Assembly (NCBI GenBank): GCA_024275575.1 | Contig: JAJRYV010000027.1 | Coordinates: 1 to 33,017, forward strand | DNA: 33,017 nucleotides | Reading direction: 5' to 3' | DNA from: a bacterium | GTDB taxonomy: Bacteria; Zhuqueibacterota; Zhuqueibacteria; Zhuqueibacterales; Geothermadaptataceae | Shown here: positions 18,612-33,017 of the stretch, piece after piece | Layout of the letters: the number at the start of each line of letters is the position of its first letter | How positions within the stretch are numbered: position 1 is the first letter of the stretch | Program-made: the position numbers and the translations under genes | The notes under the pieces: model-generated | Seen by the model: only the letters and a program-made list of their open reading frames with translations | What the model was told of the DNA's origin: nothing | The model's database searches: none

Positions 18612-18839
18612 ATGAGTAAGAAAAATCAAATTGATGCGGTGCGTAAAATTGTGCACGATTTGCGGGCCAATCATCATGCCGCCAATTTAAATGCGCAGGC
18701 GGCGGCGATGTTGTGTAAAAAAAGCAATTCGGCGGAGGTTGGAAAAGTGACCAAACATCTGGCATTTATCCTGGCTGATCTGGAGAAATTTAAAAACAAT
18801 TTGGATGAACTGACGACAACCGTCAAAGCGATGGAATAG
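18612..18839 (+). CDS. Small helical protein resembling a lone histidine-kinase DHp domain
   Basis: 75 residues, all helix-forming. The first helix contains VRKIVHDLRANHHAANLNAQ with His15-Asp-Leu-Arg, which resembles the H-box HDLRNPL of HisKA domains. A turn rich in Lys/Ser follows, then a long second helix (VGKVTKHLAFILADLEKFKNNLDELTTTVKAME), giving the helical hairpin shape of a DHp dimerisation domain. There is no catalytic ATP-binding domain and no sensor. AAGGAT 6-7 bases upstream supports the start. It lies 74 bases before a sigma-54 response regulator gene that has no full kinase beside it, so a role as a phosphotransfer partner or inhibitor is possible. The family call is tentative. 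Confidence 0.62.
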   Translation: MSKKNQIDAVRKIVHDLRANHHAANLNAQAAAMLCKKSNSAEVGKVTKHLAFILADLEKFKNNLDELTTTVKAME

Positions 18840-18913: not shown

Positions 18914-20320
18914 ATGGGACAAAATGAAATTAAAACCCGAATTTTGATCGCAGACGACGATGAATCTGTCACTTTTGCGATGGAATCGATTTTACAGGCA
19001 AGTGGAATATACGAGGTACACACGGCGAGCTCGGGTGCAGCGGCACTCAAAGCTTTGCAGACGCGGGCATTCGAGGTGGCATTCCTCGATCTTAAAATGC
19101 CGGATTTGGACGGCCTTGAAATTATCGAGCGGGTAAAAAATGCTGGTGTTACGACCGAAATAATCATGATCACCGGGCATGCCAGTATCGACACTGCAGT
19201 TGCTGCCATGCGCTGTGGGGCCTATGATTATCTGCCCAAACCGGTTGATAGCAACGATTTACTGCGAGTTGTGCAACATGCGATCGAGCGTTCGGCGCTG
19301 ATGAGGCAGAACCAACAACTGCAAAACCAGGTGGCATCCCTCACGCGCTACAATACGATCATCGGCAAATCAGCAGCGATGCAGACGCTTTTTCAAACAC
19401 TCGATGCGGTTGCAGGTAGTGACGCCACGGTTCTGATTCTCGGCGAGAGTGGCACGGGAAAAGAACTTGTGGCGCATGCTATTCATCAGGAGAGCGGTAG
19501 AAAAGAGGGCGCTTTTGTGGCGGTAAACTGTGCTGCGCTGCCGGCGACGATCCTCGAAAGTGAGCTTTTCGGGCATGAAAAAGGCGCTTTTACCGGCGCG
19601 GTGAAAGATAAAAAAGGCCTTTTTTCACAGGCTGATGGCGGAACAATTTTTTTGGATGAAATCGCCGAAATGCCATTTGAGCTACAGGCCAAATTGCTGC
19701 GTGTACTCGAAACCGGCATTTTTCGTGCTGTCGGCAGCCAGTCCGAGACGCATGTCGATGTGCGCCTGCTGGCGGCAACGAATCAGGAGCCGCAACAGGC
19801 GGTGGCGGAAAAACGCCTGCGCGAAGATCTATATTACCGCATCGCGGTCGTTGAGCTGGAATTGCCGGCACTGCGCGAACGAATAGAGGACATCCCCCTG
19901 CTCGCCAATGATTTTCTCAGCCGCTTTGCCGCTGCGAATGCTAAAAATATCGATGGATTTGCACCGGAGACTTTAGAAAGTTTGCTCAATTATGACTGGC
20001 CCGGCAATGTGCGTGAATTACGCAACGCCATCGAACGGGCGGTGATTTTATGCCGCAGCGCTGTTATCAGCCCGGGAAATTTACCGCCGCGCATCAAGAA
20101 ATCAGCACCGCTACCGGCAACGGCTTGTGAAACCGGCTACGATGGTGAGGTCGTGGTTTTTCCTGTGGGCATGCCGCTGGCCGCAGTGGAAAAAAAAATG
20201 ATACTCGACACACTCGCAGGTTGCAAAAACAATAAAACACGCGCCGCAAAAGTACTCGGCGTTAGCTTGAAAACACTACACAATAAACTCGGCCGCTATC
20301 ATGAAGATGGCGAGCATTGA
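18914..20320 (+). CDS. NtrC-family sigma-54-dependent response regulator
   Basis: 468 residues. Receiver domain 9-125: acidic pocket Asp14-Asp15-Asp16, phospho-acceptor Asp59 in FLDLKMPD, Thr in MITGH and Lys in LPKPVD. AAA+ domain about 150-380: Walker A GESGTGKE at 177-184, the sigma-54-contacting GAFTGA loop at 224-229, Walker B GGTIFLDEIAEM, and the WPGNVRELRN sensor II. C-terminal Fis-type helix-turn-helix: NKTRAAKVLGVSLKTLHNKL. When phosphorylated it should activate RNA polymerase holding sigma-54. I use ATG 18914 because AGGAGA lies 8 bases before it; the upstream TTG at 18893 would cover that site. No cognate sensor kinase is adjacent. A consensus sigma-54 promoter lies 350 bases downstream. 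Confidence 0.96.
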   Translation: MGQNEIKTRILIADDDESVTFAMESILQASGIYEVHTASSGAAALKALQTRAFEVAFLDLKMPDLDGLEIIERVKNAGVTTEIIMITGHASIDTAVAAMRCGAYDYLPKPVDSNDLLRVVQHAIERSALMRQNQQLQNQVASLTRYNTIIGKSAAMQTLFQTLDAVAGSDATVLILGESGTGKELVAHAIHQESGRKEGAFVAVNCAALPATILESELFGHEKGAFTGAVKDKKGLFSQADGGTIFLDEIAEMPFELQAKLLRVLETGIFRAVGSQSETHVDVRLLAATNQEPQQAVAEKRLREDLYYRIAVVELELPALRERIEDIPLLANDFLSRFAAANAKNIDGFAPETLESLLNYDWPGNVRELRNAIERAVILCRSAVISPGNLPPRIKKSAPLPATACETGYDGEVVVFPVGMPLAAVEKKMILDTLAGCKNNKTRAAKVLGVSLKTLHNKLGRYHEDGEH

Positions 20321-20673
20321 GGCGTTGTCGCAGCTCATTTCGATAAAAACAACCGGTGCTTGCCAAATTCAAATCCGTAATTCAAATCATGTGTAATTTT
20401 TACATATTCCTTTTAGCTTTTCACCGCTATTTTTTGCAACAAAATTTCAGCTAATATTTCAAAAAATTGTTTTTTAACCAATTAAACCCTGCAAAATCGC
20501 TCCGCCTGTGACCTTCCTTTATAAACCTGTCGCCTGATTTCCGCTAATTTTCTCTCCGGTTGCCAATTACGGAATATTATGTAATTATTATATGCTTTCT
20601 CAGAACTCCGGCAGGTTGCTAGGATGGTTAACTATTTAAAATTTCAATGAGTTAGCAAGAGAAATGTTTATTT
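20321..20673. other. A/T-rich regulatory spacer upstream of the sigma-54 promoter
   Basis: No coding frame. Two short inverted repeats are visible: TGTAA-TTT-TTACA at 20392-20404 and AATTAC-N10-GTAATT at 20565-20586. The latter is centred about 125 bases before the expected start of transcription, within the usual range for enhancer-binding activators, and could be an upstream activating sequence. Confidence 0.4.
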
Positions 20674-20688
20674 TGGCACTGCCTTTGC
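20674..20688 (+). promoter_or_regulatory. Sigma-54 (-24/-12) promoter
   Basis: TGGCACTGCCTTTGC: the -24 GG and -12 GC elements have the exact GG-N10-GC spacing and 11 of 11 core consensus bases (TGGCAC...TTGC) apart from the variable positions. Start of transcription is expected near 20700, about 47 bases before the ATG at 20747. The NtrC-type gene just upstream is the natural activator candidate. Confidence 0.85.
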
Positions 20689-20746
20689 CTGATCATGAAG
20701 CGTTAACCCAAATGAAGATGGGTGAAAATTGGCAACGGAGGTGTTT

Positions 20747-21046
20747 ATGAATTTCGAACATTTATTTATTATCATGCCGTCTTGTATCGCGGTTTCGAAA
20801 GCATTTATATATTTTGGCGAATTGGAATATAAAGGCCGCTGGCTCAACTACCTGATCGCTATGCTCGGTGGTCTCCTCGGCGCCCGTCTCGGTTTATTTG
20901 TTCCGGCGCTGCAATCCGCCATGCTGGTTGTCTCCATGCTCGTTGCAACGGGCGCACTCACCATTTATCAATTGCTGCGCTGGCGTTTCGTGGTCTGGCA
21001 GAATGGGCAGAAATCCCGCCCTCTGCAGCATAACCCGGCCTGGTAA
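20747..21046 (+). CDS. Small membrane protein under sigma-54 control
   Basis: 99 residues, not recognised. Two to three hydrophobic helices: a first weak one around residues 3-24 (HLFIIMPSCIAVSKAFIYF), then about 35-53 (LIAMLGGLLGARLGLFV) and 56-76 (LQSAMLVVSMLVATGALTIYQLL). The last 20 residues are basic and polar. GGAGGT 7-8 bases before ATG 20747 fixes the start; the TTG at 20729 in the same frame lies upstream of that site. A sigma-54 promoter precedes it and an intrinsic terminator follows, so it is a dedicated single-gene transcript. Confidence 0.78.
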   Translation: MNFEHLFIIMPSCIAVSKAFIYFGELEYKGRWLNYLIAMLGGLLGARLGLFVPALQSAMLVVSMLVATGALTIYQLLRWRFVVWQNGQKSRPLQHNPAW

Positions 21047-21188
21047 AAACACAAATTCATCGAGGCGCAACAGCAGAAGGTTTTAAGGCGTGTTTTCACC
21101 AACCAAAAGCCGTCAGAAGAAGTTGCGCTACACTGTAATTTTTAAAGTTAAACAAAAGTTTCCTCATATCTTCCCAGCCCCCCAGATG

Positions 21189-21222
21189 AACCCCGTGTGA
21201 CTTGTTCGCACGGGGTTTTTTT
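21189..21222 (+). terminator. Intrinsic terminator of the sigma-54-driven transcript
   Basis: Stem AACCCCGTGTGA / TTCGCACGGGGTT (one G-T pair) with a loop of about 5 bases and a run of seven T. It lies 143 bases after the stop of the small membrane protein gene. Confidence 0.9.
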
Positions 21223-21585: not shown

Positions 21586-22455
21586 ATGAAAGGAATTATT
21601 CTCGCCGGCGGCAGTGGAACCCGCCTTTATCCCATCACCCAGGCAATCAGTAAACAGCTCTTGCCCATTTATGACAAACCGATGATCTATTATCCGCTTT
21701 CGGTGCTCATGCTCGCCGGTATCCGTGAAATTCTCGTCATTTCCACACCGGTTGATTTGCCGATGTTCAAAAAACTGCTCGGCAGCGGTGACCAATGGGG
21801 CTTGCAATTCAGCTATGCTGAACAGCCAAAACCCGAGGGACTGGCGCAGGCATTTCATATCGGCGAGGGTTTTATTGGCAGCGACGCGGCAGCTCTCGTT
21901 CTCGGTGATAATATTTTTTACGGCCACGGCTTATCAAACATGTTGCAGCGTGTCAGCGCACGCACAGATGGGGCGACGGTTTTTGGTTATTTTGTTCGTG
22001 ATCCGCACCGCTATGGTGTTGCAGAATTCGATGATGCCGGCCGTGTCATCAGCCTGGAAGAGAAGCCGGCCCAGCCAAAATCTAACTATGCTGTCACCGG
22101 CTTGTACTTTTATGATAACGATGTCGTTGAATACGCGAAGACACTCACACCCTCACCGCGGGGTGAACTTGAAATCACTGATTTGAACAAGGTCTATCTC
22201 AGCAAGGGGAAATTGCGTGTCGAGTTGCTCGGGCGCGGTTATGCCTGGCTCGACACCGGGACGCATCAATCTTTAACCGAGGCCAGCAATTTTGTTGAGA
22301 CCGTTGAGAACCGGCAGGGGCTAAAAATTTCCTGCATCGAAGAAATCGCTTATCGCATGCATTATATCGATGCGGCGCAGGTTGAGAAACTGGCAGCTCC
22401 TCTGGCGAAAAATGAATATGGCACCTATTTGCTGGAAATATTGAAACGAAAATAA
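21586..22455 (+). CDS. rmlA: Glucose-1-phosphate thymidylyltransferase
   Basis: 289 residues, the standard length. It makes dTDP-glucose from dTTP and glucose-1-phosphate, the first step of dTDP-L-rhamnose synthesis for cell-surface polysaccharide. Nucleotide-binding signature [11 protein letters not shown] at 8-18 with Lys23 in [18 protein letters not shown], metal-binding Asp108 in [12 protein letters not shown] at 158-161 and TGLYFYD at 171-177. The C-terminal extension with the allosteric helix region typical of the short RmlA type is present. rmlB, rmlC and rmlD are not adjacent. The gene stands alone between two terminators and is convergent with the nonahaem cytochrome gene. Confidence 0.97.
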
Positions 22456-22513: not shown

Positions 22514-23785
22514 CTATTCATCCCGTTCCATGTCTTTTATTTTAAAATACAGTGCAACCAGCACGATGGTCATAAAAAATGTGGCAATGCCGAATCCGAA
22601 ACGGCGAAAATCGAGCTCATCAAGTTCCTCTTTACCGAAGGCCAGCGCTTTTTTTGCAAACTCCAGCCCCTCATCGGTTTTCACTTTTACCCTATCGGCA
22701 TCAAAGGTATGAACCAGCGTTCTGGCGCTCAAAAGGCGCTGTTTTGCATCTTTAACCGCATAACTCATATCCAGATCGTCCATGCCGACGCGTTCGATTT
22801 TTTTCAACAAGACATTTGCAGAATTAAAAGCGGTGACCAGACCGATTAATTCTGTGTGAATTTTTTCCGCGGTTTCATAAGCGGATTCGCCTTCATCATG
22901 ACATTCGACACAGGTTGAGGTTTCGCCGGTGCCGACCATGTCGTCGTGGGTTTTTTGGATTTCGTGGTTGCCGTGGCATTCTTCGCAGGCATGCAGGTCG
23001 GCTTCCTCGAACTCGATGGCCATTTTGCTTTTGGAAAAATAAGCTTGATTATTGACATGACAGGTTCCGCAAATATGTCCGATGGAAGATATTCCCGGCG
23101 GCATGGCGCCGTGGTTGCCGTGGCAATCATTGCAGGCAGGGGCACCGGTATCCTGCTTTTCCAAAAGAGCGATGCCGTGCACACTTTTGACGTATTTATC
23201 ATATTGATTTGTCGGAATGTTATATTCCTTCATATATTCTTCGTCACTGTGGCATTTGTGGCAGGTTTCCGGAATATTCAGGCTGTAAATCGTTGAACGA
23301 GGATCGATAGCCGGAAAAATGGAATGTGCCATGTGGCAAGATGCGCACGTGGCAACTTTGGTATCGCCTTTGGCCAGTTTTTGCCCGTGGAAACTTTTAG
23401 CATATTGTTGCACCTGATCGGTAGCAATTCGTGGCTGATACTGACGCATAAAAGCGATGTCCGAGTGGCACTTACCGCACATCTCGATGATCGCTTTTCC
23501 TTTGGGTACACCGATAAATCCGCTGCCCTTGCGTTTTGCCACTTCTTCATCATCACTGGTGGAATCTCCGCCGTGACAACCGGCGCAGGACAAGCCTTTT
23601 TGCATGTGGATATCGGATTCTTCGAAATTTTCAGGCATCGCTTCGAGATCTTTATGACAAATAACACATTGGTCATTTTTATCAAACCTTGATTTTTCCT
23701 GGCCCAGTGCAGTTGCGGCCATGAAAATAATGGCAAGGTGGATGCAGAAAATTGACATGATTAGTCGTTTCATATTATTATCCAT
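22514..23785 (-). CDS. Membrane-anchored nonahaem c-type cytochrome of the bc operon
   Basis: 423 residues. Signal peptide (to about residue 28, ATALGQ) and nine CXXCH haem sites: CVICH (40-44), CAGCH, CGKCH, CASCH, CHKCH, CNDCH, CGTCH, CEECH and CVECH. After the last haem come about 75 residues of helix and a C-terminal membrane anchor (about 396-417, FGFGIATFFMTIVLVALYF), so the haem part is periplasmic. It is the last gene after Rieske and cytochrome b and starts 9 bases after the cytochrome b stop. It therefore most likely takes the place of cytochrome c1 as electron exit of the complex. It shares the pattern 'SxHGxxL...ATCxxCHxxHxI..NIPxTCxxCH' with the giant cytochrome further upstream, so the two are related. 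A start at Met5 is possible. Confidence 0.92.
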   Translation of the reverse strand: MDNNMKRLIMSIFCIHLAIIFMAATALGQEKSRFDKNDQCVICHKDLEAMPENFEESDIHMQKGLSCAGCHGGDSTSDDEEVAKRKGSGFIGVPKGKAIIEMCGKCHSDIAFMRQYQPRIATDQVQQYAKSFHGQKLAKGDTKVATCASCHMAHSIFPAIDPRSTIYSLNIPETCHKCHSDEEYMKEYNIPTNQYDKYVKSVHGIALLEKQDTGAPACNDCHGNHGAMPPGISSIGHICGTCHVNNQAYFSKSKMAIEFEEADLHACEECHGNHEIQKTHDDMVGTGETSTCVECHDEGESAYETAEKIHTELIGLVTAFNSANVLLKKIERVGMDDLDMSYAVKDAKQRLLSARTLVHTFDADRVKVKTDEGLEFAKKALAFGKEELDELDFRRFGFGIATFFMTIVLVALYFKIKDMERDE

Positions 23786-23794
23786 AATTAACTT

Positions 23795-24865
23795 TTAAAC
23801 GAGATAACCCCAGGCGGTCATTATCAAGATAAAGATGATAACGATAATGCCAAACCATTTTAAGACTTTAGGGCGAATACTTTCTTTGATGTACACATCC
23901 CAAAAGGGCACGGAAAACCACACCAGACCGCCGATACCGAAGAACAGAATGCCGAAAACCTCGCCTTCCATGATCAGGAAATGTGCCGGCAGCAGTTTCA
24001 GCGATTGGAACATGAACATAAAATACCATTCGGGCCGAATTCCCTCAGGGGCCGGAGCAAAGGCATCAGCTTTCACGCCCAGTTCCCAGGGGAAAAATAC
24101 AGCCAGGTAGAGCAGGATATTTAGAATAACGCCCCAGAGCAGAACATCACGCAGGATGAAGTTCGGAAAAAACGGCATCATCCGTTTTTTCTCAGTCGGC
24201 AATTCTTTAAAAAACTCCGGTTCGTGCATGCCCTGGCGTTGTACAAAGAGCAAATGCAAAAACAGCATGACGGTAAAAATGGCCGGCAGCAAGGCGATGT
24301 GGAATGCATAAAATCGCGACAGGGTTGCTCCAGTTACGCTATCACCGCCGCGTAGCAAAACTTTGATCGGTTCACCGATGATGGGTACTGCTCCGGCGAT
24401 ATCCGTGCCCACTTTGGTCGCAAAAAATGCCAGCTCGTTCCACGGCAGCAGATAACCGCTGAAACCGAAAACCATCGCGAGCAAGAAAAGTACGGCACCG
24501 GTAACCCAGGTCAATTCACGGGGTTTGGCATAAGTCCTGGTAAAAAATGCGCTGAACATATGTACGAAAACAAAGAACACCATCAGGTTGGCAGACCAAC
24601 TGTGGACGGAACGAAACAACCAGCCAAAGCTGACTTTCGTCGTGATAAAGCGAATGCTTTCATAAGCGCTGTCAACGCCGGGCTGGTAATATAGGAGCAG
24701 CAACATACCGGTCATAGCTTGCACTACAAATAAAATCATTGCAACGCCGCCCATGTAATACCACAAACTGTGTTTGTGTACCGGCACTTCTTTATGGCTC
24801 ATGAACTCGAACAGCGGTTGAATGTTAAACCGCTCATCAAGCCAGTCAATCGTTTTTTTAAACAT
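23795..24865 (-). CDS. Cytochrome b of a Rieske/cytochrome b complex (b6 + subunit IV fused)
   Basis: 356 residues. The N-terminal b6-like four-helix part carries the bis-His haem ligands His88/His102 (13 residues between) and His189/His204 (14 between, the b6f spacing). The Qo-site PEWY motif is at 278-281 in the C-terminal part equal to subunit IV, which here is fused to b6 in one chain. PWNELAF and FGFSGYLLPW segments are typical. It oxidises menaquinol in the inner membrane, sending one electron to the Rieske protein and one through the b haems. AGGA 6 bases before the ATG supports the start, which lies only 2 bases after the Rieske stop. It belongs to a tight three-gene operon. Confidence 0.96.
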   Translation of the reverse strand: MFKKTIDWLDERFNIQPLFEFMSHKEVPVHKHSLWYYMGGVAMILFVVQAMTGMLLLLYYQPGVDSAYESIRFITTKVSFGWLFRSVHSWSANLMVFFVFVHMFSAFFTRTYAKPRELTWVTGAVLFLLAMVFGFSGYLLPWNELAFFATKVGTDIAGAVPIIGEPIKVLLRGGDSVTGATLSRFYAFHIALLPAIFTVMLFLHLLFVQRQGMHEPEFFKELPTEKKRMMPFFPNFILRDVLLWGVILNILLYLAVFFPWELGVKADAFAPAPEGIRPEWYFMFMFQSLKLLPAHFLIMEGEVFGILFFGIGGLVWFSVPFWDVYIKESIRPKVLKWFGIIVIIFILIMTAWGYLV

Positions 24866-24867
24866 AG

Positions 24868-25308
24868 TTATCCTACTTGCTTCGGTTTAGATATTAACAC
24901 TTCTTTATCAACAATATTGATAACGTATTGATTGAGTGGTTTCGGCGGTGGGCCGGAGATATTTCTGCCGGCCAGATTGTAGGTGCCGTTGTGGCAGGCG
25001 CACCAGATATCCTGCCGGTCTTTACGGTATTGAACAGTGCAATCCAGGTGGGTGCAGGTAGCGGCAACAGCGCTGAACTTGCCGGTTTTTGTCCGAATAA
25101 GCAGAACCGGAATACGTCCAAATTTAAGGATTTTACTGCTGTTTGGCGGAATATCGGCAATAGCGCCTGCATTGACAGACTGTACGTTGGCTTCCGGTAT
25201 TTTCGGGGGTACTAAAAAAGTTAATACTGGATAGAAGAAACTGCCGAGCCACCCCAGGAATCCTCCTCCCAGAATGGTGTTGAGAAACGTCCGACGGTTA
25301 AGTCCCAT
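24868..25308 (-). CDS. Rieske iron-sulfur protein of the bc complex
   Basis: 146 residues. A twin-arginine-type N-terminus (LNRRTFLNTILGGGFLG) continues as a single membrane anchor. The [2Fe-2S] ligands are Cys85/His87 in CTHLDC and Cys103/His106 in WCACHNGTY, with Cys90 and Cys105 as the usual disulfide pair. GPPPKPLNQY is the conserved Pro loop. It passes electrons from quinol to the c-type partner on the periplasmic side. ATG 25308 is chosen because AGGAGATT precedes it by about 8 bases; the frame opens 6 codons earlier across that site. First certain gene of the Rieske-cytochrome b-nonahaem operon. Confidence 0.95.
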   Translation of the reverse strand: MGLNRRTFLNTILGGGFLGWLGSFFYPVLTFLVPPKIPEANVQSVNAGAIADIPPNSSKILKFGRIPVLLIRTKTGKFSAVAATCTHLDCTVQYRKDRQDIWCACHNGTYNLAGRNISGPPPKPLNQYVINIVDKEVLISKPKQVG

Positions 25309-25358
25309 AAAGCAATCTCCTGTCATTTTAGAAAATTTTTACTGATGATTTTCATGTT

Positions 25359-25538
25359 CTATTTCGGTTTTTCCCCGTTGCTCTTTTTGCCCTCTCCTCC
25401 AAAGGTCGCCAGGAGTCCCTCGATAAGTTTTTGTTCTTCACCGCTTGCAAGTTTGCTCCCAGGTGAGAAATGGTATAAAACCAAAGCGGCATCCCCCCTT
25501 ATGGCAAAAAATATGGCAATAATAATCCTGGATTTCAT
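25359..25538 (-). CDS. Small membrane-anchored protein candidate upstream of the Rieske gene
   Basis: 59 residues from ATG 25538 (MKSRIIIAIFF...). One N-terminal hydrophobic stretch is followed by a soluble tail with GEEQKLIEGLLATFGGEG and a Lys-rich end. It lies 50 bases before the Rieske start in the same direction. The ribosome binding site is poor, and two other reading frames are open across the first half, one beginning with a much better AGGAGG near 25620, so a frame error in the GGGGGG run near 25498 cannot be excluded. Confidence 0.42.
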   Translation of the reverse strand: MKSRIIIAIFFAIRGDAALVLYHFSPGSKLASGEEQKLIEGLLATFGGEGKKSNGEKPK

Positions 25539-25639
25539 CTCTCGCATCACTTTTATTCACTTTATTACAGAGTGCTGATATCATTGTTGTGCAGATTTTC
25601 TGCGAGTTCATTCATAGCCTCCTGTGCTTCCAGGAATGA

Positions 25640-25667
25640 AAAGGGAGAATTGAGCAATTCTCCCTTT
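25640..25667 (-). terminator. Intrinsic terminator after the tetrahaem cytochrome gene
   Basis: Perfect 13-bp stem (AAAGGGAGAATTG / CAATTCTCCCTTT) with a 2-base loop, which in practice will be 4 or more, and a short T-run on the minus strand. It lies 30 bases after the cytochrome stop and separates it from the bc operon. Confidence 0.85.
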
Positions 25668-25696
25668 CGCAGAATGGCGGGATTATTTATAGCAAG

Positions 25697-26245
25697 TTAC
25701 TTTTCAGGTACCGGATGGGCGATTTTTTCCTTCATTTTTTCAAAATCAAAAGATTTGAAGGTAGGGCTTTCATCATTGTGGCAACCAAGGCAGGTTTTCT
25801 CGGTCGGTATGATCAGCCCGACGGAAGCTGGATCGATTTTACCGGCACGAAGTGCCTTCATCGTTTTTTTCTTTTTGTAAAGAGAGCCGGCGCCGTGGCA
25901 GGACTCACAGCCGACGCCATCTTCAATAGCATATTTTTTTCCGAGCATTGATGCATCGGCATCGTAAGCAGTGACATGGCATTTCAGGCATTCTTTGGCT
26001 TTTTGCGGATTTTCAATGCCACGTTCCTTAGCGAATTTCAGCGCTTCCGGAGAAGCGAGTGTTTCATATGCTTTAGAATGTTTGGCTTTTTTCCATTTGG
26101 CAAACTGGGCGCCTGCCTTCTCTTTTTTATGACATGTTTTGCAGCCCTTGACACCAACGTACGTGGCCTTTTTTTCCTGAGCGAAAAGACCGCCCGCAAA
26201 AAGGAGTACGAGTGCTGCAATTAATGACCATTTAAAGAATTTCAT
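25697..26245 (-). CDS. Periplasmic tetrahaem cytochrome, c554-like
   Basis: 182 residues. A clear signal peptide ends in LLFAGGLFAQ. The mature protein starts with YVGVKGCKTCHKKEKAG..FAKWKKAKHSKAYETL, the typical opening of cytochrome c554-type proteins. Four CXXCH sites: CKTCH (35-39), CLKCH, CESCH and CLGCH. The final segment KEKIAHPVPEK contains a possible distal His. The likely role is a soluble electron carrier in the periplasm. GGAGG 8 bases before ATG 26245 fixes the start; the longer frame from 26341 lacks a signal and is not used. It follows the DUF2339 gene by 92 bases and ends at its own terminator. Confidence 0.93.
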   Translation of the reverse strand: MKFFKWSLIAALVLLFAGGLFAQEKKATYVGVKGCKTCHKKEKAGAQFAKWKKAKHSKAYETLASPEALKFAKERGIENPQKAKECLKCHVTAYDADASMLGKKYAIEDGVGCESCHGAGSLYKKKKTMKALRAGKIDPASVGLIIPTEKTCLGCHNDESPTFKSFDFEKMKEKIAHPVPEK

Positions 26246-26337
26246 TGGTTGTACCTCCAAATCTGAATTAATGATTGATTTATTGTATGTTATCCCGGTT
26301 TGGTTATCGGGCAATGTGCTTGTCCTTTTCATCATGA

Positions 26338-27972
26338 TCATTCAATATCCCTTTTTCGCTTTGCATAATACAATGAGGCGCTTAATGAAATGATCGCAAT
26401 GATTAAAAAGGCCACAATACTATATCCAATACCCATACGGGCTAAATCGACAGCAAAGAGATAAATACAAGTTGCAACCAACGTTAAAATGGCCAGCCAG
26501 CGGTATTTTACGTTACGCAGCCAGATGCTCAATAAAAAAAAGAGTGTTGCGGCTCCAGCCCAGGCCAAAGTGATATGTTGTTGCGGTACGGCATGATAAA
26601 GGCCATAGAGTAAACCGAAAAAGCTCGAGGCCAGGTAGGTATTGCGCATCATCTCTGTTTTTAAAGCCAGGCGCTCTTTCTGCCAGTTCATGATTCGCGC
26701 CGATGCCAGCGCAACGATGACAAAAGTAAAACTGGTAAAACCGGCCGGCGGTGCACCGATGATATAAGCGAGAAAGAAAAACAGAAATAGAAACGTATTT
26801 ACGACGATGATGAAACGCGATCGGAACCAGAGCGCCATCGATACGACCAGTAAGCTCTGCAGGGCAAGCCACGGGTAAACATCGGGGATGCCGGTGTAGG
26901 TGGCCACAGCGATGCTCAACGCCATAAATCCGGCACAGGCATAATAAGCCGCTGCGAATTTAAAATCGGTTTTTTTTCGAATAAGGATCGAAAATAAAAT
27001 ACAATAGATTGCTACGGCGCCGCTGATAGCGGTGTAGTTGTCCTGAAAAAAGGTTAAAACCACGAGCCAACAAATGATGGAAAAACCGGCGCCATTGAGT
27101 AGAAAACTCGCCGGAAAAACGATCTCCGGAAACCGTTCTTTATCTTTAACAAGCAACGGTAAGGTAAACAAAACAGCATAAATCGCCAAATAACCCAGAT
27201 TGTATTGATGCGCGCTCACTGCTTGCAAAGGATGGCCCATCAGTGGATTGCTCAACAACCACATCAAATGCCCGAGGTAGACCAGAATCAGCGCAAGAAA
27301 AAAAATACGCCACCATGTCCGGGTGGTGAACATTATGAGCGCAACGATGCCGATGACACCAAGAATTGCCAGCAAAATATGGGTGGAATCACTGACGATG
27401 GCAGTGATAAAAAGCAGGATAATCGTGAGACCGCCCAGCAATTCTGATTTTTCCCGCATGGCGATATAAAATAATGAGCCCAGGGAGATTGCCAATAGCA
27501 AAAGTGTCACTGCCGCGGAGGAAATCAACGGTTGCGTCAGAAAATAATGCAATCGTAAAGTTGTGTAATAGATCAGAATGTGCCCGATGAGTTTAAATAG
27601 AGAAACGAGATAGGGTAAGGTGCTGCGCATAAAATGCGTCAATAGAAAAAGCCCGGCAGCAAGTGAGTAACCCAGGACGGTCGACAGGAAAACGTGCCCG
27701 TTGTTGTACAAATAGGTCATCAAAAAAGCCATGCTCAGAAACAAAACGAATGCGCCGAGCCATGCCAGACCATATTCGCCGACTTTTGATTCGACCGTAG
27801 CGCTTTCGAGATGTGGCAAATCATCGATATATTCTTCAGCTTCGCCAGAGCGTTCCAACAGGCCGCTGTTCGCGAGCAATCCTTCGATTTGCTGTAGCCG
27901 CGATTCGAGTTCGTCGATTTTTACCGCCAATTTTTCGATGACCAAAATCTCATCTTTGCCGGTCTGGGGCAT
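26338..27972 (-). CDS. DUF2339-like polytopic membrane protein
   Basis: 544 residues. The first 60 residues are cytoplasmic with a coiled-coil-like segment (IEKLAVKIDELESRLQQIEGLL), then about 16 closely spaced hydrophobic helices to the end, with almost no extramembrane loops. This layout and the N-terminal coiled coil resemble DUF2339 proteins, whose function is unknown. No catalytic or cofactor-binding residues are evident and no CXXCH is present. CAGGT before the ATG gives modest support for the start. It lies in the cytochrome island, upstream of the tetrahaem gene, but the shared function is not evident. Confidence 0.75.
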   Translation of the reverse strand: MPQTGKDEILVIEKLAVKIDELESRLQQIEGLLANSGLLERSGEAEEYIDDLPHLESATVESKVGEYGLAWLGAFVLFLSMAFLMTYLYNNGHVFLSTVLGYSLAAGLFLLTHFMRSTLPYLVSLFKLIGHILIYYTTLRLHYFLTQPLISSAAVTLLLLAISLGSLFYIAMREKSELLGGLTIILLFITAIVSDSTHILLAILGVIGIVALIMFTTRTWWRIFFLALILVYLGHLMWLLSNPLMGHPLQAVSAHQYNLGYLAIYAVLFTLPLLVKDKERFPEIVFPASFLLNGAGFSIICWLVVLTFFQDNYTAISGAVAIYCILFSILIRKKTDFKFAAAYYACAGFMALSIAVATYTGIPDVYPWLALQSLLVVSMALWFRSRFIIVVNTFLFLFFFLAYIIGAPPAGFTSFTFVIVALASARIMNWQKERLALKTEMMRNTYLASSFFGLLYGLYHAVPQQHITLAWAGAATLFFLLSIWLRNVKYRWLAILTLVATCIYLFAVDLARMGIGYSIVAFLIIAIISLSASLYYAKRKRDIE

Positions 27973-28457
27973 GATTACCTGCCGTTTTAATTTGGACTGT
28001 TTCTTTAATTTGAGATCGAGCGTCGTTATTTTGCTATACCGCGGGCAGAGCGGTATTTATTCTCACACAGTCACACCATTTTGCGTAATCCGGGCTACGC
28101 TCTTGAACGCAGATATTTTATTACCACCCATGGGGTGATTGGTTATAAAATAATTTGATATTTATTCTCACTTTGCCTCATTAAAAACGTCATTAATTCC
28201 GACGCCGCCGGTAGCGGATTATTTCTTATAATTAATGCACTTCTACAAAACATTTAATAGCGCGCCGACAATATACATTTTCGACAGCTGCTACTAAATT
28301 AGACGCATTTGAGTATATTGTCAAGAAAAATAATACTAATGAGGTAAATTAGCCCGGTTTGAGCGGTGATAAGATTTTTTTTCTTAAAGATAGTCAGAAG
28401 AGAATTTAATGAGATTAACTGTCGTTTTAATTTTAATTCATTGAATTTATAAAACTT
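27973..28457. other. Intergenic region rich in small inverted repeats
   Basis: No credible gene. Three small palindromes (ATACCGC-N7-GCGGTAT at 28036-28056, GCGTA-N8-TACGC at 28083-28100, CACCC-ATG-GGGTG at 28125-28137) and a 13-base direct repeat TATTTATTCTCAC (28054-28066 and 28159-28171) lie within 140 bases. This may be a repeat unit or the control region of the DUF2339 gene. Confidence 0.45.
28036..28171. repeat. Cluster of short inverted repeats flanked by a 13-base direct repeat
   Basis: Described from the sequence only: the direct repeat TATTTATTCTCAC brackets about 92 bases that contain two palindromes. Such an arrangement could be a small mobile or REP-like element. No transposase or terminal structure confirms this. 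Confidence 0.35.
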
Positions 28458-28490
28458 ACCGGGAGATACGCTTTGGGTTTATCTCCCGGT
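28458..28490 (-). terminator. Hairpin downstream of the NapC-like cytochrome gene
   Basis: 11-bp stem ACCGGGAGATA / TATCTCCCGGT with an 11-base loop. It lies 135 bases after the stop codon. On the minus strand AAGTTTTAT follows, so it is a weak or factor-assisted terminator. Confidence 0.6.
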
Positions 28491-28624
28491 TCCTGAATTC
28501 AATTATTGGTAATGCAACAGGCAGATTAAAAAATATTCAGCTGCTTTAATAACGAAATAACGCAATTTTCCATAAAAATTTTATTAACAAATGCAAGAAA
28601 TTATGAGCACCGTTTTAAAAAATA

Positions 28625-30115
28625 TTATTCTGCATGACATTCGTAACAGCCTTCTTCCTTCCATTCCTCATCGATATCTTCGGGATGCTTGAAGGTCAGG
28701 CCTTTTAAATCAGCCTGTGAAAATTCTCCATTCCCTTGTTCGACGATCAAATGGCAGATGTTACAGTCGTTGGAGATGACTTCGTCATTCTCTGTGCGAT
28801 GCTTGCCATCGTGGCAACGGTAACAACCCGGCGCCGAGATATGCCCGATGTTATTGGGGTATGCCCGCCAATTGGCTTTCATTTCCGGGAAATAGTTATT
28901 TTGAAAAATGGTTTGCAATCCTTCCACGGCCGCATCAATTTGCCCTTTATTCGACTCATAAACATCAGGGTATTCGGATTTATAGAAGGAATTCAGCTCT
29001 TCTTCGATCCGTTTCATGCCCTGCTCAGTCAGGCTGTCTTCCTCGCAGGCTGCAAGAATTTCCATCGCTTTGAGTTTGATTTCCGGAATTTCAGTGGAGA
29101 TTTTACCGGCGACCATAGCTTTGTTGATGGTAAACTGCGGGTATCGGTAAATATGTGCCGGCCGATTGTGACAATCGATGCAATCCATGGTTTGCATGGG
29201 ATGTTCGGCGAGATTCAGGTCATCCGCGCCTTCGCTTTTAAAAATACGAACCGTGCCGTTTTCATCGACTGAGCGAACCCAGGGAATATCCTGGTGTCGT
29301 GCATCTGTAGTGATGAATTCGACTTTATTGTTGATATGCCAGTGAATATTGGATTCCCTTGTCAGGTCAATGCCGCTGCCGCCGCCGATGCGCAAGAGCA
29401 GATTGTAATCCCAGCGGGTATTTTCTTCGTCTTCCATAAAATGTGTGCGGGTGATTTGTTTTTTGCCATAGAATTTTTGTGGCCAGTGGCATTGTTCGCA
29501 GGTTTCTCGTGCCGGGCGCAAATTTTCGATTGGCGTCGGGATCGGTCGCTCGTATTTATTGAACAAAACTGAATAGACCTGATAAGCGCCGGAAAGCTTT
29601 GAGCGCACATACCACTCGGCGCCGTGGCCAACGTGGCAATCGACACAGGCAACACGGGCGTGCGGGCTGTTTTGATAGGCGACGAATTCAGGTTTCATCA
29701 CTGAGTGACATAACTGACCGCAAAAGGTAACGGATTCAGTGAACTCAAAAGCACGGTAGGTACCCAGGGAGGTGAACAAGGCAAGAATACAGGTGGTGGT
29801 TACAAAAAAGATGACGCTGCGCATATGTTGTGGATTATTTAAATCCACTTTGGGTAAACGCTGGGCGGCAAGCCCCCGCAACTGACGTCGGCGCTCACGC
29901 AAGGCGCCGATGGGAATGATGATCAGACCGATGACCAGAAATACCGGGAGAATGATATAAGTCAATATCCCGAAATAGGGCGTCTTCGATGGTGAAAACG
30001 CATCCAACAAAATGAGTAAAATTATAATACAGAGCACAACCCCCGCCAGGATGGCCCCAGCCAGGCTGATAAAGTTATAAAATGAATCGCTATACCGGCG
30101 TTCACTTTTTGCCAT
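28625..30115 (-). CDS. Seven-haem NapC/NirT-family membrane cytochrome (ImcH-like layout)
   Basis: 496 residues. Three N-terminal membrane helices (about 14-38, 48-70, 99-118) are followed by a periplasmic cytochrome region. The first haem site is CGQLCH (132-137), a CX3CH rather than CXXCH, followed by SVMKPEF as in NapC/NirT proteins. Six CXXCH follow: CVDCH (157-161), CEQCH (206-210), CIDCH, CYRCH, CNICH and CYECH. ERPIPTPIENLRPARETCEQCHWPQKF is a strong family block. Such proteins oxidise menaquinol and deliver electrons to periplasmic partners; size, three helices and seven haems match Geobacter ImcH as I recall it. AAGGAA 8 bases before the ATG supports the start. A terminator precedes it, so it may have its own promoter. 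Confidence 0.92.
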   Translation of the reverse strand: MAKSERRYSDSFYNFISLAGAILAGVVLCIIILLILLDAFSPSKTPYFGILTYIILPVFLVIGLIIIPIGALRERRRQLRGLAAQRLPKVDLNNPQHMRSVIFFVTTTCILALFTSLGTYRAFEFTESVTFCGQLCHSVMKPEFVAYQNSPHARVACVDCHVGHGAEWYVRSKLSGAYQVYSVLFNKYERPIPTPIENLRPARETCEQCHWPQKFYGKKQITRTHFMEDEENTRWDYNLLLRIGGGSGIDLTRESNIHWHINNKVEFITTDARHQDIPWVRSVDENGTVRIFKSEGADDLNLAEHPMQTMDCIDCHNRPAHIYRYPQFTINKAMVAGKISTEIPEIKLKAMEILAACEEDSLTEQGMKRIEEELNSFYKSEYPDVYESNKGQIDAAVEGLQTIFQNNYFPEMKANWRAYPNNIGHISAPGCYRCHDGKHRTENDEVISNDCNICHLIVEQGNGEFSQADLKGLTFKHPEDIDEEWKEEGCYECHAE

Positions 30116-30168
30116 TTCTTTATTCCTTTCGTTTATTTAGAAAATTGGCGTTTGTGAAGGTAATAAAA

Positions 30169-30217
30169 AAACAGGATAAACAAGAAAGTAAAGATATTTT
30201 TTTTGTTTAACCTGTTT
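30169..30217 (-). terminator. Intrinsic terminator or attenuator between the two large cytochrome genes
   Basis: Arms AAACAGGATAAACAA and TTGTTTAACCTGTTT pair over 15 bases with one mismatch. On the minus strand seven T follow. It lies 36 bases after the giant cytochrome's stop and 54 bases before the NapC-like start, so the second gene is either read through partly or transcribed separately. Confidence 0.8.
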
Positions 30218-30252
30218 TAATAAACATTCAATCGATATTTGTCAGTGTTGGA

Positions 30253-33017
30253 TTAATAATGCAAAATCAGGGCATAAACGGTCAGGATGATGATGGATAT
30301 TCCTGCCGAAAGGGCAAGGAATCCAAAAACCCGAGCCCATCGCTTCAGCCATTTTTCCGGCGTTTTAACAAGTTGTTTTTTAAAACTTTTTGATTTCAGC
30401 ATCAATTCGAATTCCCGCGGCCGATCTTCCCGCAATTCATCGATGACAACACTGCCGGTGAAGATAACGGTATCCATGGGGAATTTATCAGGTCGCATAT
30501 GGGTGTTGAAAAAATGAATGGCAAAGATAAAACAGGTTGCCAAAAGCGCCTCATCGCTATGGATGATGGTGGCGACATTCACCATCCAGCCGGGCAGCCC
30601 GAGACCGGTAAAAAATTCCGGGAACCATAAAACCAGCCCGCTGAAGCCAATGACAGCAACACCCCAGAAAACAGCAAAATAGTCAAATTTTTCCCAATAG
30701 GTCCAGCGGCCATAATTGGGTCTTTTGCCCAGGCCGACAAACCATTTGATCGTCTGACCGAATTCGATGAGATCGTGCCAGCGTGGAACCAGGGTATCCT
30801 CCCCGGTGAAGAGCTGTTTTAAAGTCAGGGTTTTGTTCCACAATTTGCGCCCAAGATAACCGAGATGCAGGATGAAATACAGTATCGTTATAATCGCGGC
30901 ATAACGGTGTGCATAGCCGGTTACTGCATAACCACCCAGCGCTTTTGAAATGTACTGGAATATGCCAACTTCGGAAAACTTGATGGTCAAACCGGTTAAG
31001 GCCAGGGAAATAAAACTCAGAATAACTAAAATATGGAGAAAGCGGGAAAAGGCATCAAAGCGTTGCACATGTTTGCCCTTATAAGGCATAGGCTTGCCCG
31101 CGTTTTCTTTTTTTGTCTTGTTGATTTTTCTGCGCTCAAGAATTGCCCGCGGGATCCAGAGGATCGTATGCAGACCGAAAAATCCGATCGTGCCGAGAAG
31201 CAAATAGGTCATAAACCAGAAGGTGTAATAAAGCGAAGGATTTTTTTCCTTGTCGGTATGTTTGGCATGCGCCAGATAGCTGGCGAAACGAACGTTGGAA
31301 TTTTTATGGCAGGTGCCGCAGGTGGCGACGATATTTGCCGGGTTCAACGTCGAGTTTGGATTATCCTGTTTGAGTATATTATGTGCCCCGTGGCAATCGT
31401 AACATTTTGCCGTCGAAATTTCGCCTAGTTTCGAGACTTTGCCGTGGAAGGTTTCGAAATAGGTTTTCGTTACTTTTTCATGACAATCACCACAGTAACT
31501 GAGAATTTGCTGACGAAAGCCGCTTACATCGACACGGGTGATCGTATGTGATGAATGGCAATCATTGCACGCCGGCAATTTTTTGTCGGTTTTTGTCACA
31601 GTGGGGCTGTGGATACTGTTTTTAAAGACCTCGAAAATGCCAAGATGACACTGGGCGCAGGTTTGCGGGATATTTTCCGCATGCACGGTTGAGGTGGAAT
31701 CGGCAATGGGTTTTTCATTGTGCGCGGTGTGGCAATCGACACATGTCGCCGTGACCATCAAACCACTTTCAAGTAACCCTTTGCCATGGATGCTCATCGT
31801 ATAGTTTTTGATGATATTCTTTTCAGGACCGGTATAAACGCGGGCAGCCTTTTCTCCTTCACGGTGACAATCGCCGCATAAATCCGGGATATTGCGCGCA
31901 AACGAGCGGGAAGTGATATCATTTTTTGATTTGATCAGGTGGCTGCCGTGGCAATTGGAACAATAGGGCGCGATGGTTATCGAATCCGCCCGATTAAACA
32001 GAATACCGTGCTGGCTCTCATTATATAAAGCCACCTCTTCTGCGTGACACATAGAGCAATCCACTTTGCCGCTATTTTTACAAACCGGATTGCTGGAAAT
32101 GCTCACCGTGCTGTGGCATTTGACGCAGGAATTATCCTTGTGAACGGAATTCTTAATATGCTCCGGATCAACAGTCAGCGAAATTTTTTTCCCATCAACG
32201 GTTTTAAAAACATCATTTTTCGTATGGCAGACAATGCAATCCTTGTCCGGAAATGTTTTTTCATATTCGACGCGGCGCACCTGATGCGGCTGGTGGCAAT
32301 CGATACAAATGGGAATTTCATCCGGTCGTTTTTGCCAAAGCTCGCCACGGATAACCTTGACATGCATCCGTTCGATTTCAGCGTGGCACTGTTCGCAGGT
32401 CATGGGAATATTCTTTTTGTTGATGGATGATTCCGGATTTTCATGCGGCAAAATATCATGTGAATTATGGCAACTTGTGCATACTGCTGTAACGATAAGC
32501 CCGCGCCGGAAGAGCCCGTCACCGTGAATTGACTGGGAATAATTGGCCAGGACTTCATGCTCGGAAATATCTGCCAGCTTGGAAACCGGCGTCCCCTCTT
32601 TATGGCATCCCCCGCAAAGGTTTGGAATATTCAAAACATAGGTTTTGGAGTTTTTGTTTTTTGCCGGCAAAATATCATGTTTGCCGTGACAGGTGATGCA
32701 AGTCGGTGCGAGGTATTTCTCCTTTTTCAAGGCCTCACCGTGCAGGCTGCGTTTGAAATGCGCCACGGCATCTTCATGGCAATCGGAGCAATCGACCCTT
32801 TCGACAGAGGTTTCATCATCCGGGTGCTCTTCGAGGTCGATATCAGCGTGGCATGATGTGCATTCCTCTTCTGCATGGATGGATTTCAGGAAGCGGGCGC
32901 CGTTGACATAAATGGAGACTTCCTTGCCTTCACGTTCCATGGTTTCACCTTTTTCCCCATGGCAATCGAGACATTCTTCGACTTCGTCTTGCCCGTAAAC
33001 GAGCTGGAACGATAAAA
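30253..33017 (-). CDS. Giant multihaem cytochrome fused to a b-type membrane domain (5' end outside window)
   Basis: At least 920 residues; the frame is open through the right edge. The first in-window Met (32938-32940) is internal, because the upstream codons (LSFQLVYGQDEVEECLDCHG) contain a haem site and look like the end of a signal peptide. Nineteen CXXCH motifs are visible: one in the upstream part, eight in module A (about 32889-32224), eight in module B (about 32157-31480), two more after it. Then come a membrane helix (YYTFWFMTYLLLGTIGFFGL) and a cytochrome b561/FdhI-like four-helix domain with candidate haem-b ligands in FLHIL, YAHRY, ILHLG, IIHSDE and AIHFFNTH, and one final C-terminal helix. 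Layout equals Geobacter CbcL-type inner-membrane quinol oxidases: the b part takes electrons from menaquinol and passes them to a periplasmic haem chain. Direction could be reversed. Confidence 0.93.
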   Translation of the reverse strand, partial: LSFQLVYGQDEVEECLDCHGEKGETMEREGKEVSIYVNGARFLKSIHAEEECTSCHADIDLEEHPDDETSVERVDCSDCHEDAVAHFKRSLHGEALKKEKYLAPTCITCHGKHDILPAKNKNSKTYVLNIPNLCGGCHKEGTPVSKLADISEHEVLANYSQSIHGDGLFRRGLIVTAVCTSCHNSHDILPHENPESSINKKNIPMTCEQCHAEIERMHVKVIRGELWQKRPDEIPICIDCHQPHQVRRVEYEKTFPDKDCIVCHTKNDVFKTVDGKKISLTVDPEHIKNSVHKDNSCVKCHSTVSISSNPVCKNSGKVDCSMCHAEEVALYNESQHGILFNRADSITIAPYCSNCHGSHLIKSKNDITSRSFARNIPDLCGDCHREGEKAARVYTGPEKNIIKNYTMSIHGKGLLESGLMVTATCVDCHTAHNEKPIADSTSTVHAENIPQTCAQCHLGIFEVFKNSIHSPTVTKTDKKLPACNDCHSSHTITRVDVSGFRQQILSYCGDCHEKVTKTYFETFHGKVSKLGEISTAKCYDCHGAHNILKQDNPNSTLNPANIVATCGTCHKNSNVRFASYLAHAKHTDKEKNPSLYYTFWFMTYLLLGTIGFFGLHTILWIPRAILERRKINKTKKENAGKPMPYKGKHVQRFDAFSRFLHILVILSFISLALTGLTIKFSEVGIFQYISKALGGYAVTGYAHRYAAIITILYFILHLGYLGRKLWNKTLTLKQLFTGEDTLVPRWHDLIEFGQTIKWFVGLGKRPNYGRWTYWEKFDYFAVFWGVAVIGFSGLVLWFPEFFTGLGLPGWMVNVATIIHSDEALLATCFIFAIHFFNTHMRPDKFPMDTVIFTGSVVIDELREDRPREFELMLKSKSFKKQLVKTPEKWLKRWARVFGFLALSAGISIIILTVYALILHY

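Follow-up and report, generated by a model that had tools for sequence, protein, structure and literature searches.

The 33,017-nucleotide stretch analysed here (the window) encodes an NtrC-type response regulator (18914-20320) with a receiver domain, a sigma-54 AAA+ domain containing the GAFTGA motif, and a Fis-type helix-turn-helix (HTH). Matches to PF00072, PF00158 and PF02954 are all present, so the activator is of the NtrC type, as originally predicted, and its orthologues are 48-73% identical. The gene is preceded by one for a 75-aa stand-alone HisKA/DHp-like protein (18612-18839). It is followed by a 426-bp intergenic region, a gene for a 99-aa three-helix membrane protein (20747-21046), an intrinsic terminator (21188-21222; a hairpin at 21188-21218 plus a T run) and rfbA, encoding glucose-1-phosphate thymidylyltransferase (21586-22455; TIGR01207, 511 bits). 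All of these features, and the regulatory elements described below, lie on the forward strand. The rfbA gene, which may lie outside the regulon, also follows the terminator in the related genomes G001, G003, G005 and G006. Further downstream (22514-32940) the window encodes multihaem cytochromes, cytochrome b and a Rieske protein, in an order shared with G001 as far as about position 27972.

A sigma-54 promoter, TTGGCACTGCCTTTGCC, was identified at 20673-20689, with its -24/-12 elements in GG-N10-GC spacing and TGGCAC-N5-TTGC spanning 20674-20688. It begins 354 bp past the regulator stop codon, close to the 350 bases first estimated. On a simple weighted -24/-12 scale it scores 24 out of 26, a score matched by none of 500 shuffles of the intergenic region, and no other site on either strand of the 33-kb window reaches 23. 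The genome from which the window derives (the window genome) encodes sigma-54 itself (PF04552, E=2.8e-61; C116:195210). Taken from the sequence alone the promoter would leave some doubt, because the 15-bp consensus has 12 matches in this genome compared with 4 for the reversed control. Conservation removes that doubt. A -24/-12 element scoring at least 20.5 out of 26 lies upstream of the small gene in all 13 orthologues, which span two families, and GG-N10-GC is kept in 12 of them, the exception being G002 with GT at -12. In G006, which belongs to another genus, the promoter core is identical though the small protein is just 43% identical. Both the absence of a sigma-54 gene and the lack of a conserved -24/-12 element had been named as grounds for abandoning the original prediction, and neither applies. 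That the match is a chance sequence, as the 12-to-4 count on its own might suggest, is contradicted by this conservation and by the pairing with a conserved enhancer described below, and we regard it as exceedingly improbable. Several of the other consensus matches in the genome precede genes for exported proteins and one lies between pspF and pspA, making a functional sigma-54 regulon plausible. The latter is a phage-shock locus (L009; C116:46566), and a like arrangement occurs in G002 (L104).

Two putative enhancers (predicted upstream activating sequences, UAS) of the form TGTAA-N3-TTACA precede the promoter. The distal one, TGTAATTTTTACA (20392-20404), matches at 10 of 10 positions and lies 281 bp upstream of the promoter; the proximal one, TGTAATTATTATA (20580-20592), matches at 9 of 10 and lies 93 bp upstream. 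Two congeners carry exact copies, TGTAAATATTACA and TGTAATTATTACA, aligned to the proximal enhancer of the window. The activator site had been proposed to be AATTAC-N10-GTAATT. This palindrome is indeed exact at 20565-20586, where its right half overlaps the proximal enhancer, but it rises above shuffle level in no relative, and its neighbour TGTAA-N3-TTACA is what is conserved instead. We therefore take TGTAA-N3-TTACA as the conserved activator element, to which the regulator is predicted to bind. The predicted enhancer is not equally strong in every family member, being degenerate (8/10) in the most divergent ones (G007, G009 and G014).

A genome-wide search for the promoter had been suggested as a check; the promoter pattern alone is no proof, as the counts above show, and it was combined with the enhancer. 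With 75-105 bp between the two elements, this pair was found 12 times across 82 genomes and never in the reversed controls. A relaxed version gave 30 matches compared with 6 in reversed controls across 63 genomes, a ratio implying that some of the 30 are due to chance; in the window genome it has exactly one match, at the 99-aa gene. Seven exact copies of TGTAA-N3-TTACA occur in this genome. Of these, just the copy at 20392-20404 has a strong -24/-12 element in its vicinity, and the other six were set aside as further targets. The idea that the DHp-regulator genes control their own expression through such elements was likewise rejected, as no strong pair lies upstream of 18612. Elsewhere in the same family, the enhancer together with TCTGGCACTGCCATTGC precedes a conserved exported-protein gene (L107 in G006, L108 in G004), a second candidate target. 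In other families, at L081 and L084, an enhancer and a sigma-54 promoter lie upstream of genes that probably also belong to the regulon; one of them encodes an exported, fibronectin-like protein whose C-terminal domain is of the sorting type. The window genome encodes a similar protein (L002), with a -24/-12 site but without the enhancer.

Sigma-54 activators are able to work at a distance, and in G006 the promoter and small gene are on a separate contig from the DHp gene. A different activator might thus serve this promoter, with the adjacent regulator controlling something else. Against this, clusters with this regulator recur together with the TGTAA-N3-TTACA enhancer, and their regulators share, with minor variation, the recognition helix SLKTLHNKL (in G061, SVKGLYNKL), from which two other activators of the window genome differ. 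Moreover, this genome has no second strong sigma-54 site with a correctly spaced enhancer matching at 9 of 10 positions. We consider service by another activator improbable, and the regulatory DNA part of our reading, enhancer and promoter, well supported.

The small gene begins with an ATG at 20747 behind a strong Shine-Dalgarno region (GGAGGTG; 20735-20742), with AAAGGAGGTGC at the equivalent place in G001 and G002. Both the ribosome-binding site and the 99-residue membrane protein are as first described. Orthologues were found in 13 of the 15 genomes of the order and in none of the 48 other genomes of the class, and are restricted to this one order of Calditrichota. Those of congeners are 60-63% identical to the window protein, and a single-protein scan of named genome records returned two Calditrichaeota metagenome-assembled genomes (63% and 60% identity), which places the window in that phylum. 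The middle helix is Gly-rich, and N34, Y35, G45, L60, L71 and R78 are invariant. A structure model of the protein has moderate confidence (70.7). There is no confident family match: PF04226 (Transgly_assoc; YeaQ/YmgE) is matched weakly by two of nine orthologues (best E=5e-4), the best score, from the G014 orthologue, being 20.6 bits compared with a gathering score of 25.3. Candidate identities as TauE, ThrE or cytochrome b559 were rejected, every match falling below the cut-off, and a search for plasmid carriage of the gene gave no match.

In relatives, the gene order is hybrid kinase, DHp protein, NtrC-type regulator, small membrane protein, LysM protein and terminator. The linkage of small gene and regulator, whose conservation had been proposed as a check, thus recurs. 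The LysM proteins, of a cell-wall-binding type, begin with a signal or anchor and continue through a LysM motif and a linker to a membrane helix at the C-terminus. Of the 82 genomes of the phylum, 31 yielded such a protein, and many of the matches to the combined pattern precede its gene. An enhancer-promoter pair, with a spacing of 92-189 bp, lies within 1 kb upstream of 27 of the 28 LysM genes that have upstream DNA, either directly or through the small gene; by a criterion at least as loose, 6 of 156 control 1-kb segments contain such a pair. The cluster of G061, from another family, lacks the small gene: the genes for kinase, DHp protein and regulator are followed by a pair of exact enhancers and a promoter, and then by the LysM gene. 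Given this and its wider spread, the LysM gene is probably the older output, to which the small gene was added in the order of the window genome. Its position in front of the LysM gene suggests an envelope role for the small protein, which most likely acts as an accessory beside the LysM protein. G013 has another LysM gene (L111) outside its kinase cluster, with an enhancer and promoter of its own.

A search of the window genome, 98% complete, yielded no homologue from this LysM family. The LysM gene of G001 is flanked by the small gene and rfbA. The terminator of the window aligns with that of G001 (blastn; 84% over 68 bp, E=7.6e-15), where the match begins beside the LysM stop codon. Because the two terminators are orthologous, the LysM gene appears to have been deleted from the window genome with the operon terminator retained, and the unit is derived from an operon minus its second gene. 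The original prediction of a lone gene with a dedicated terminator therefore describes the present, derived state: the gene stands alone here and belongs to an operon in relatives, and the hairpin and T run are those of that operon. Similarly, the small gene was suggested to be the main output of the regulator. It has the sole enhancer-promoter match in this genome, but the ancestral main output would be the LysM protein.

The promoter, ribosome-binding site, gene and terminator that were first described as a complete regulated unit are all present; the original prediction omitted the hybrid kinase and the 75-aa DHp-like protein. In relatives the kinase comprises PAS, HisKA, HATPase and REC domains, and every cassette kinase checked with profiles ends in a receiver domain. 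A chain built on such kinases needs a separate phosphotransfer protein, and we infer that the 75-aa protein provides this step between kinase and regulator. Across the family these proteins are about 70-88 aa long, and all 14 orthologues, divergent as they are, keep one His (His15) and one Asn. PF00512 (HisKA) is matched by 8 of the 14 members (best 6.2e-8), and the window protein alone is under the threshold. Its AlphaFold model is a helical hairpin (pLDDT 95), for which Foldseek returned histidine-kinase DHp domains among other hairpins, with non-significant E-values and a query shape that is not specific. Two features depart from a canonical H-box: the position following the His is variable (D, K), and so is H+4 (N, A, G, S). 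The protein could instead be a phosphatase, a competitor or a dimerisation partner of the kinase or regulator, with the kinase phosphorylating the regulator by another route. This is a possibility to be taken seriously though a doubtful one, given the invariant His, the HisKA matches and the location of the gene between those for the hybrid kinase and the regulator. A role as a phosphorelay step is moderately supported.

The kinase orthologue of the window genome lies on contig C70 (L152:1185-5315), unlinked from the regulator, and is 60% identical over the N-terminal 378 residues. It has an in-frame TGA at codon 83 (C70:1431), which may be an assembly error or real decay; the remaining frame is open, with a receiver domain at its end. 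Given this stop codon and the failure to find a LysM gene, the pathway here may be in decay. The regulon could then be real in relatives and the small gene and promoter here leftovers under weak selection, as the unlinked kinase gene and the single mismatch in the proximal enhancer would also allow. However, the promoter, the Shine-Dalgarno region and the frames of the small protein (still as similar to its congeners as given above), the regulator and the DHp protein are all intact, and one TGA could be an artefact of metagenome assembly. On balance we find it rather unlikely that the locus is such a remnant.

Instead, the locus is probably the output part of a sigma-54 regulon that is conserved in Calditrichota; in this reading a phosphorelay controls an envelope operon via sigma-54. 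In the mechanism we propose, the membrane-bound hybrid kinase (HisKA-HATPase-REC; C70) would pass phosphate via its own receiver domain to the DHp-like protein, and from there to the NtrC-type regulator. Bound to both enhancers (20392 and 20580), the regulator would drive the sigma-54 RNA polymerase at the promoter (20673). The resulting transcript would express the gene for the 99-aa inner-membrane protein and end at the terminator at 21188; in relatives it would run on into the LysM membrane protein gene, the ancestral output. In favor of this explanation we counted, beside the promoter, enhancer and terminator evidence above, the recurrence of the kinase-DHp-regulator-output order in relatives, and against it the in-frame TGA of the kinase, the LysM gene that was not found, the proximal-enhancer mismatch, the sub-threshold DHp protein of the window and the small protein without a confident family.

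We find the case finely balanced for a stronger proposal, namely that this is a previously undescribed Calditrichota regulon in which a bare DHp hairpin relays phosphate from hybrid kinase to NtrC-type activator, and a LysM/small-membrane-protein envelope operon is controlled via TGTAA-N3-TTACA. No description of the kinase-DHp-regulator cassette was found in the open-access literature. What began as a promoter guess in a metagenome-derived genome becomes a defined regulon in an almost unstudied phylum, with a named enhancer, an activator family and a conserved output. It includes a possible minimal phosphotransfer protein, of about 75 residues, and appears to be a clean example of a single-gene sigma-54 unit arising by deletion of the main gene of an operon.

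Several known systems resemble parts of this arrangement. With its three short helices in about 90 residues and Gly-rich middle helix, the small protein is reminiscent of GlsB/YeaQ/YmgE (PF04226); it differs in that the best orthologue stays under the gathering score and the window protein itself has no match. Spo0B and ChpT resemble the DHp-like protein: each acts between a receiver-bearing kinase and a response regulator and carries a conserved His on a helical hairpin of DHp type. They keep a degenerate ATPase-like domain, whereas the protein found here is a hairpin only, in the 70-88 aa range.

The PrsK/PrsR system of PEP-CTERM bacteria has an NtrC-type regulator with a Fis HTH, long intergenic regions and a 17-nt enhancer motif ending in TTTACA upstream of the sigma-54 site, and the motif was reported to be restricted to Proteobacteria (Haft et al., 2006; PMC1569441). 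The window shares with it the regulator type, a long intergenic region with a putative enhancer that precedes a sigma-54 site, predicted outputs at the envelope or surface and a nearby polysaccharide gene. TGTAA-N3-TTACA resembles the PEP-CTERM motif and may be its counterpart. On the other hand, the outputs here are a small membrane protein and a LysM protein, the enhancer spacing is wider, and a hybrid kinase and DHp protein stand in place of PrsK. Membership of the PrsR family was rejected (TIGR02915, 390.3 compared with a cut-off of 502.6), and exosortase (PF09721) has no match in the window genome (G000) and scores above the cut-off in 6 of 63 class genomes.

Another comparison is with PspF, pspA and pspG, where a sigma-54 activator also adjoins an output of small envelope proteins; the window genome has its own pspF-pspA locus with a -24/-12 site. 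Here, in contrast, the activator is receiver-controlled within a kinase cassette, and the enhancer and outputs are different. Sigma-54 has been argued from comparative genomics to be a controller of the bacterial exterior (PMC3162934), a theme that the Calditrichota locus would match outside the usual phyla.
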